The position numbers and the translations under genes were made by a program. Positions 32,848 through 33,801 of a stretch of 64,000 nucleotides of DNA are shown one piece after another (within the stretch, counting starts at the first letter, position 1; every line of letters starts with the position of its first letter). Under the pieces are notes generated by a model that was given only the letters and a program-made list of their open reading frames with translations, searched no databases and was not told where the DNA came from. Origin of the DNA: Sphingomonas telluris (lineage in GTDB: Bacteria; Pseudomonadota; Alphaproteobacteria; Sphingomonadales; Sphingomonadaceae); assembly GCF_022568775.1 (NCBI RefSeq), contig NZ_JAKZHW010000002.1, positions 323,501 through 387,500 of the forward strand, written 5' to 3'.

Positions 32848-32877
32848 CGTCAGGGTTCAGGTCGCTTGAAGGAGTTT

Positions 32878-32913
32878 GGGGCCGCGTCCGTAAGGAAGCG
32901 GCCCCTTACTTTT
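32878..32913 (+). terminator. Terminator after the YciI gene
   Basis: GGGGCCGC (32878-32885) pairs perfectly with GCGGCCCC (32898-32905), loop 12 bases, followed by TTACTTTT. It insulates the + strand YciI transcript. It reaches the stop codon of the convergent metallothionein-like gene. Confidence 0.75.
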
Positions 32914-33010
32914 AGCAGCTGCAGTTCTTGCAGGTGCACGGCTTGCAGGTGCAGCCGCGATGGGCGGCGATCTTCGCGGCCTGAACCTGCTGTTCGGTCA
33001 ACTGAGTCAT
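32912..33010 (-). CDS. Metallothionein-like micropeptide, 32 residues, six Cys
   Basis: Reads MTQLTEQQVQAAKIAAHRG followed by the C-terminal block CTCKPCTCKNCSC (CXCX2CXCX2CXC). Six cysteines in thirteen residues with no aromatic residue is a metallothionein-like metal-binding design; the N-terminal half is a short predicted helix. GAGGAG stands seven bases before the ATG. The gene is divergent from a MerR-family regulator, with a mer-type operator and promoter between them, so metal induction is likely. It is far shorter than SmtA-type metallothioneins (~55 residues). The metal is not known; Cu(I), Ag(I), Zn(II), Cd(II) or Hg(II) are possible. Confidence 0.75.
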   Translation of the reverse strand: MTQLTEQQVQAAKIAAHRGCTCKPCTCKNCSC

Positions 33011-33045
33011 GTCCAATCTCCTCTTGCCCGGGAGTGGGCTCGACC

Positions 33046-33077
33046 CATATGGCGTCCGTACCATGGTACGGAATCAA
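33046..33077 (-). promoter_or_regulatory. mer-type promoter/operator driving the metallothionein-like gene
   Basis: TCCGTACCATGGTACGGA (33055-33072) is a perfect 18-base palindrome with 7-4-7 layout. Its half sites equal those I recall for the Tn501/Tn21 mer operator (TCCGTAC-N4-GTACGGA). On the minus strand it lies in a 20-base spacer between -35 TTGATT (33077-33072) and -10 CATATG (33051-33046). This is the over-long spacer that MerR activators untwist. The leader to the ATG at 33010 would be ~30 bases. Confidence 0.7.
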
Positions 33078-33473
33078 GTGAAAAAAGCAGACACGATCGG
33101 AGCGCTTGCGAAAGCCGCCGGTGTCGGCGTCGAAACCGTCCGCTATTATCAGCGTCGAGGGTTGCTGCCGGAACCGCCCCGACCACACGGGGAAGTCCGG
33201 CGCTACAGCGACGACGACGTGCGGCGTCTGAAATTTATCCGCTCGGCGCAAGCGGCCGGGTTCACGCTGACGGAAATCGCCGAACTGCTGGACCTCAGCG
33301 CGTCGGATGACCGCGACCGAGCACGCGCTCTCGCGCAGGCGCGGGTGGCTGCGCTCGAGGACAAGATCCGCGAGCTTCAGGAAGCCAAGGAAGCGCTGTC
33401 CGGGCTCGCTACGGCCTGCGCGAATGAGCACGGCGGACCCTGCCCGATCCTTTCGGCCTTCGACCGCGGATAG
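33063..33473 (+). CDS. MerR family metal-responsive regulator
   Basis: 136 residues from ATG 33063, which lies inside the operator; a GTG at 33078 giving MKKADTIGALAKAAGV is an attractive alternative. The wing-helix IGALAKAAGVGVETVRYYQRRGLL and RYSDDDVRRLKFI closely resemble Hg-type MerR, followed by a dimer coiled coil near residues 80-110. The C-terminal loop has CANEHGGPC (CX7C), the spacing of CueR. The upstream Cys that Hg-MerR needs (Cys82 in Tn501) is absent; the aligned residue is Arg. A soft-metal sensor is likely, the ion uncertain. Confidence 0.88.
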   Translation: MVRNQVKKADTIGALAKAAGVGVETVRYYQRRGLLPEPPRPHGEVRRYSDDDVRRLKFIRSAQAAGFTLTEIAELLDLSASDDRDRARALAQARVAALEDKIRELQEAKEALSGLATACANEHGGPCPILSAFDRG

Positions 33474-33531: not shown

Positions 33532-33801
33532 TTAAAGGCTGTTGGTGGTGTTCGTGGTGGACGTATTGTCCATCGGATTGGCGGTCCCGTTCATGTCGGT
33601 CGTGCCGTTCATGTCCGTCGTGCCAGCATTCATGTCCGTGGTCCCGGCATTCATGTCGGTGCCCATGTTCATGTCGGTCGTGGTTGTATTCATGTCGAGG
33701 CTGGTGTCGGCATTGACCGCATTGTCCTCGGCACTGTTACCGCCGCAGGCCGCGAGTGCGGCGCAGCCAACCATCGTCGCGATCGCGATCTTGAACTTCA
33801 T
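33532..33801 (-). CDS. Small lipoprotein with DMN repeats
   Basis: 89 residues. A signal peptide ends in lipobox LAAC, so the mature protein is lipid-anchored. The rest is almost only Asp, Met, Asn, Thr, Gly and Ala, with six DMN units (TTDMN, GTDMN and TTDMN variants) spaced every six to eight residues. At the DNA level the repeat is TTCATGTC on the + strand. It is probably disordered. Met- and Asp-rich repeats could bind metal, but this is speculation. GGGGA precedes the ATG; a terminator follows the stop. Confidence 0.65.
   Translation of the reverse strand: MKFKIAIATMVGCAALAACGGNSAEDNAVNADTSLDMNTTTTDMNMGTDMNAGTTDMNAGTTDMNGTTDMNGTANPMDNTSTTNTTNSL

Follow-up and report, generated by a model that had tools for sequence, protein, structure and literature searches.

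The window (the whole stretch of DNA that was analysed, 64 kb) carried a putative mini-metallothionein gene on its minus strand and a divergent MerR-family regulator gene on its plus strand, with a MerR-type operator between them (Table 1). The open reading frame of the peptide ran from ATG 33010-33008 through 32 codons to the stop TAA 32914-32912, and its last 13 residues, CTCKPCTCKNCSC, formed a six-Cys core with the stop codon directly after it. The original prediction had proposed a 32-residue peptide in this place, six Cys within its last 13 residues as a CXCX2CXCX2CXC array, and a GAGGAG seven bases before the start; all three were found in the sequence, the last at 33023-33018, and the strand, absent from that prediction, was minus. 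Taken as a codon pattern, the core with its stop occurred once in the 64-kb window and in 0/100 dinucleotide shuffles.

Table 1. Features of the peptide locus in window coordinates, with the basis or details of each.
Feature	Position	Strand	Details
Putative mini-metallothionein gene	32912..33010	-	32 aa MTQLTEQQVQAAKIAAHRGCTCKPCTCKNCSC + stop; homologs; pattern unique in window
Six-Cys C-terminal core	32915..32953	-	CTCKPCTCKNCSC = CxCxPCxCKxCxC; 11-row alignment, 28-locus codon table
Ribosome-binding site GAGGAG	33018..33023	-	7 bases 5' of peptide ATG; read from sequence
Predicted -10 element	33047..33052	-	CCATAT at 19-bp spacing; CATATG at 20
MerR-type operator	33056..33071	.	Perfect dyad CCGTACCATGGTACGG; between divergent peptide and MerR genes
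Predicted -35 element TTGATT	33072..33077	-	TTGA in 25/26 peptide loci; TTGC in L081
Divergent MerR-family regulator gene	33078..33473	+	131 aa; Pfam PF13411/PF09278; loop CANEHGGPC
GC-rich hairpin	32873..32910	-	Directly 3' of peptide stop; fold -25.2 kcal/mol, z -4.44

A longer in-frame start for the peptide (ATG 33064, 50 aa) was rejected because the added stretch overlapped the promoter and varied upstream among relatives. The peptide had no significant match in Pfam (best, HTH_10, E 0.18) or in NCBIfam, and its profile had no relative among PDB sequences at E ≤ 10. The hairpin was a possible transcript end for the peptide gene as judged from its predicted fold; on the plus strand it was followed by TTACTTTT and may be the end of a convergent YciI-family gene. 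The terminator scan did not call this hairpin at the peptide locus. Adjoining the MerR gene on the minus strand (33532-33801) was an 89-aa lipoprotein-like ORF, Met-rich and with repeated TTDMN blocks, which could also have a metal role. No copper gene was recognised beside the peptide in the window, the neighbours being judged mostly by eye.

A protein search of 100 genomes (this genome and its relatives) gave matches in 12 at E ≤ 0.1, every one in the same genus; two weak matches among these (L011 in G051 and L013 in G014) lacked the motif and were rejected. In the alignment of the window peptide with 10 relatives, the C, P and K columns of the core were invariant and the N-terminus drifted, despite which the ending CxCxPCxC[KR]xCxC-stop was kept among relatives. 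In rows picked by pattern, the C and P columns (and the K/R column) were required by the pattern itself, and rows from the protein search or found through the regulator or operator were independent of it. The peptide was present in 17/71 genomes of the genus, 14 by profile and three (G034, G053 and G057) opposite the regulator or operator, all three with the same core; the G034 locus was already known from the pattern scan (L042), and those of G053 and G057 were new. The CxCxPCxC block occurred twice in the G053 peptide, which had ten Cys in all. Of 396 genomes searched across the order, at least 17 matched the profile, nine in the genus and eight outside it; one of the latter (L023, another genus) had the motif, and the seven others (L024-L030) were rejected for its absence. 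The profile counts for genus and order are lower bounds, because the profile missed three genomes and at most 20 candidates were scored per genome in the order search. A tblastn search of 72,556 plasmid records gave no peptide match, a weak negative with a short query and the low-complexity filter on.

Scanning genome_contigs (84,980 species) for the codon pattern yielded 47 stretches. A divergent MerR relative lay within 1 kb in 19/19 stretches labelled Sphingomonas, Sphingomonadaceae, Sphingomonadales or Alphaproteobacteria, and also in one labelled Proteobacteria (L061). No divergent MerR was found nearby in 27/47 stretches, among which L065 had a weak MerR 3 kb away on the same strand and L040 and L050 were labelled Proteobacteria only. 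From their sequences, most of these 27 were read as chance, and four (L046, L048, L058 and L068) as looking like Cys-rich peptides from other phyla. Ten of the 20 MerR-linked contigs overlapped with the genus genomes, and pooling gave 28 distinct peptide loci; the locus counts are not independent, because nearly all relatives came from one family and the sets overlapped. With an ATG preceded by a Shine-Dalgarno-like site preferred as start, peptide length was 25 to 36 aa across the 28 loci, except for L089 (23 or 34 aa by the start chosen). All 28 peptides had three or more CXC and 6-10 Cys within at most 36 aa, and a few had one Tyr. The original prediction had expected its peptide to recur beside orthologous MerR genes with an intact frame, and this was borne out: homologous peptides adjoined the orthologous MerR in the 19 stretches above and in 15/32 MerR loci of the genus, and the reading frame and six-Cys core were kept among relatives.

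The mer-type operator form CCGTAC-N4-GTACGG was present 5' of the peptide in 26/26 loci checked, 25 of them with no more than one mismatch in the half-sites and L036 with two, and an A/T-rich element similar to the predicted -10 stood at the matching place in relatives. A generic sigma-70 scan, which permits 16-18 bp spacers only, found no promoter at the peptide. At ≤1 mismatch, the operator was present once in this genome, and in 33/71 genomes of the genus vs. 1/71 for the reversed control. MerR was present in 33/33 operator genomes (Fisher p 4e-17, ignoring relatedness) and in 17/17 peptide genomes (Fisher p 1e-6, ignoring relatedness); the operator too was present in 17/17 peptide genomes. 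Two loci (L081 and L082, in genomes G023 and G007) kept the operator with no MerR within 1.5 kb of the peptide, and both genomes had a MerR relative elsewhere. In L083, MerR was about 0.9 kb from the peptide and had its own operator copy. In G014, peptide and MerR each had an operator copy, about 0.8 kb apart and separated by a muramidase-like ORF (by eye), and a third copy fronted a glutaredoxin-MauE gene on another contig. A further operator copy (L171, G102:C2:746458) fronted a membrane-like ORF of 164 aa whose start is rich in His, a possible extra regulon member.

The start of the regulator (GTG 33078) was chosen by the analyst. The best NCBIfam match of the regulator was TIGR02051 (120 bits, below the cut-off of 150.85), its score against the CueR model TIGR02044 was 96.6 bits (below the cut-off of 147.4), and its nearest PDB sequence was 5crl, a mercury MerR. 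At E ≤ 1e-30 the MerR was found in 36/71 genomes of the genus, with 38 matches. Mercury MerR binds Hg by Cys82, Cys117 and Cys126, as set out in a section of PMC7911910. Of these three ligands, the two loop Cys were kept in the regulator and Cys82 was replaced by Arg, as it was in 33/33 aligned copies; the metal loop was C-x7-C in 33/33 copies, which makes it shorter by one residue than the loop of mercury MerR. The same section describes the Cu(I)/Au(I) sensors CueR and GolS as having two loop Cys but no Cys77/82 ligand, and Ser at position 77 (PMC7911910). The regulator resembled the CueR type in the C-x7-C spacing of its two loop Cys and in having no Cys at position 77, but had Arg, not Ser77, where MerR Cys82 aligns. 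As read from the Cys82 to Arg replacement and the CueR-like loop, the regulator is not a standard Hg sensor; its copper selectivity is an extrapolation, because CueR has Ser where these copies have Arg.

Peptide-linked copies clustered in the regulator tree (7 changes vs. 17.2 shuffled) and included a 13-row peptide clade with support of 99/96; the tree was used for this clade only, with 20/48 forks open and an implausibly long L079 branch, perhaps from a misread stretch. Two MerR relatives facing glutaredoxin-MauE (L126 and L132, in G025 and G042) had one in-frame stop each in the search alignment, perhaps through decay or sequencing error.

On the divergent side within 1.5 kb, the 32 MerR loci of the genus (drawn from the 38 matches, six left out) carried the peptide in 15, glutaredoxin-MauE in 14 (in L131 by a short match only), neither in three and both in none. 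By this 15/14 split at the same switch, two different thiol proteins appear to be interchangeable outputs. Outside the genus, two loci had both: in L074 glutaredoxin-MauE came first and the peptide next, each with its own operator copy, and in L031/L091 the peptide came first. The L074 protein had Pfam glutaredoxin and MauE domains. In this genome no full glutaredoxin-MauE was found, with one 47% match covering residues 4-81 only.

Seven plasmid relatives of the regulator were studied, from 30 listed among 4747 records. By annotation, copper genes surrounded the regulator in five: RND efflux and a copper-binding protein in L079; copB, copC and copD in L080; RND and a copper-binding protein in L177; copper resistance protein B and DUF411 in L178; and a multicopper oxidase, a metal P-type ATPase and a cupredoxin in L180. 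The contexts of L078 (a DUF305 protein only) and L179 (none) were not clearly copper. The regulator faced an annotated glutaredoxin gene in 6/7 plasmid relatives, the exception being L180, and the proteins so annotated in L078-L080 had 74-76% identity to the L074 protein.

This genome (99.99% complete) had no TIGR01511 Cu-exporting ATPase match at E ≤ 1e-20; in the control, 14/14 genomes matched, 13 of them above the cut-off. TIGR01511 had no match in 27/71 genomes of the genus, and was above the cut-off in 7/17 peptide genomes vs. 32/54 others (p 0.26), because of which the peptide as a stand-in for a missing Cu-exporting ATPase was rejected as a general explanation in the genus. No PF02069 metallothionein was found in this genome at E ≤ 1, and controls matched in 4/14. 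With neither a PF02069 nor a Cu-ATPase match in this genome, the peptide may matter more there, with no rule for the genus.

Among bacterial metallothioneins, SmtA/BmtA (PF02069) resembles the peptide as a small Cys-rich protein with a C-x-C-x-P-C-x-C stretch (1jjd, compared by eye), but has 55 aa in 1jjd vs. about 25-36 aa in the peptide, which has no second half. Membership of the peptide in PF02069 was rejected, its Pfam search having given nothing beyond the HTH_10 match. The original prediction of a type distinct from SmtA/BmtA accordingly holds by sequence, on the missing PF02069 match and second half. A passage of a copper-homeostasis review lists no bacterial metallothioneins beyond MymT and SmtA with its homologues, and describes mycobacterial MymT as a small Cys-rich Cu(I) metallothionein that was at first unannotated (PMC7558416). 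The likeness of MymT (4.9 kDa) to the peptide is one of description. The regulator of MymT is RicR, not MerR. Zrd of Pseudomonas aeruginosa is described, in part of PMC12301328, as metallothionein-like and driven by the MerR-family CadR; it shares MerR-family control with the peptide, but is there a zinc-ribbon protein with predicted mononuclear sites and a Zn/Cd response.

Fungal Cu-thioneins are short and CXC-rich, with 26 residues and seven Cys in the pattern [CXC]-X5-[CXC]-X3-[CXC]-X2-C, according to an excerpt of PMC4755600. Those of Neurospora crassa and Agaricus bisporus resemble the peptide in tiny size, CXC pairs and a presumed single Cu(I)-thiolate cluster. The seven-Cys fungal pattern was absent from the peptide, whose core reads [CXC]-X2-[CXC]-X2-[CXC]-stop: the spacings between CXC pairs are X5 and X3 in the fungal proteins and X2 and X2 in the peptide, which has six core Cys and a CXC-stop end. 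Unlike them, the peptide is bacterial and lies under a MerR-type operator.

The operator of the Tn501-type plasmid mer operon reads GCTTGACTCCGTACATGAGTACGGAAGTAAGG, with half-sites and a 4-bp centre length equal to those of the window operator. The Tn501-type system also shares the divergent layout and TTGA..CCGTAC-N4-GTACGG with a 19-bp spacer, and has the closest MerR by sequence. It differs from the window system in the Cys82 to Arg replacement and C-x7-C loop of the window regulator and in the target, which is the peptide or glutaredoxin-MauE and not merTPA. In full-text literature (subscription papers outside its scope), no paper among the matches listed described this peptide family, and none among those listed treated the pairing of the regulator with glutaredoxin-MauE.

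Similar peptides were also seen outside sphingomonads. IMG/VR contigs (L181/L187, L185, L186/L188, L182/L183 and L192) carried five distinct peptides of 16-22 aa that end in the same core, such as MCNNPNCKCNPCNCKDCKC, which are, from their sequences, possible phage-borne mini-metallothioneins; in L181 and L185 the peptides were 1-3 kb from NrdB-like and small glutaredoxin-like ORFs (by eye). No exact CCGTAC-N4-GTACGG was found in the 250 bases upstream of the viral peptides, and in four of 12 viral contigs (L184, L189, L190 and L191) the pattern looked like chance and was set aside. Cys-rich peptides with the same end were present in Flavobacteriales, Saprospiraceae and Chloroflexi contigs (L046:4399-4440, L068:2479-2520 and L048:1949-1990), the one in Saprospiraceae directly 5' of an ORF resembling an ECF sigma factor. 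In Prevotella (L058:324-365), a 329-codon open frame ended in repeated CKCDPCxC-type blocks, as perhaps in a long multi-cluster metallothionein.

The gene probably encodes a stand-alone mini-metallothionein, induced through MerR, that would bind Cu(I) in the cytosol and is similar to the Cu-thioneins of fungi. When the cytosolic level of a thiophilic ion (most probably Cu(I)) rises, the two loop cysteines of the regulator would bind the ion. The metal-loaded regulator would untwist the over-long 19-bp-spacer promoter between the divergent genes, as MerR does, and a short transcript with the peptide as its sole product would result. The six to ten thiolates of the expressed peptide, mainly in CXC pairs, would enclose a Cu(I)-thiolate cluster of small size. 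A usual cluster has four Cu(I) per six Cys, and about this ratio would be expected here; the cell would thereby buffer the ion cheaply. Related strains would use this switch to drive the glutaredoxin-MauE membrane protein instead, and two loci have both near. New relative to the original prediction are the operator of mer type, the changed metal site in the regulator, glutaredoxin-MauE as the alternative output and the copper genes near plasmid relatives; these point to copper over soft metals generally.

Copper is the best guess for the metal on these grounds, and mercury is its main rival. A mercury-responsive mini-metallothionein, in which the regulator would still sense Hg(II) and the peptide sequester it, is suggested by the mercury MerR proteins being the best HMM and PDB sequence matches of the regulator (TIGR02051, 5crl) and by operator half-sites and spacer that match the mer promoter; it is unlikely given the loss of the Hg ligand Cys82 to Arg in 33/33 copies, the loop shorter by one residue, and the copper genes around 5/7 plasmid relatives. 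A Zn or Cd buffer of the SmtA/BmtA kind, reduced to its N-terminal CxCxPCxC part, would fit the start of SmtA, KCACEPCLC (1jjd), whose C-x-C-x-P-C-x-C spacing equals the first half of the core. That reading is quite improbable: the peptide lacks a PF02069 match and a second half, its CXC pairs resemble those of Cu-thioneins, and the regulator has two loop Cys only, without the further ligands given for ZntR in a section of PMC7911910.

The peptide might instead be a copper chaperone or carrier that hands its ion to an exporter or to glutaredoxin-MauE rather than storing it, as its place beside glutaredoxin-MauE in L074 and L031/L091 would allow. Both genes beside the regulator were found in 0/32 genus loci (15 and 14 with one or the other), and this genome has neither a full glutaredoxin-MauE nor a Cu-ATPase match, which leaves a chaperone role with a similarly low probability. 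That the ORF arose by chance, or is a regulatory leader from which no functional peptide is made, would fit its very short length and a peptide known here from sequence alone. This is very improbable, as the core and stop were kept over many species while the N-terminus drifted, and G034, G053 and G057, found through the regulator or operator, carried the same core; a chance ORF was rejected on the shuffles and on the conserved core beside the same regulator type in other species. The next gene in the locus is convergent, so that a leader would have no obvious target.

The Cu(I)-buffering peptide is rated here as a putative metal binder of a separate short bacterial metallothionein type, working like a small Cu-thionein. 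In a broader and more tentative reading, which is possible and falls short of being probable, C-x-C-x-P-C-x-C-x2-C-x-C-stop would be a minimal stand-alone Cu(I)-thiolate module used as a whole gene, as a MerR-switched peptide of about 25-36 aa in sphingomonads and as free peptides of 16-22 aa in phage contigs and one Chloroflexi contig. As part of the same tentative reading, the sphingomonad switch would combine a mer operator with a copper-type metal site and exchange the peptide for glutaredoxin-MauE. If this is true, few gene-encoded metallothioneins would be smaller, and bacteria and viruses would have their own counterpart of the fungal Cu-thioneins, missed because of its size.

The bacterial metallothionein class would gain a separate type of fungal size, controlled by a MerR switch of its own, and the system would give a clear test of the re-use of a mer-type promoter for another metal. 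The locus would offer a compact cassette for metal sensing and binding. The locus also shows that genes of 25-36 codons can go unrecognised next to familiar regulators, and that the operator, in place of the gene's own sequence, can lead to them.
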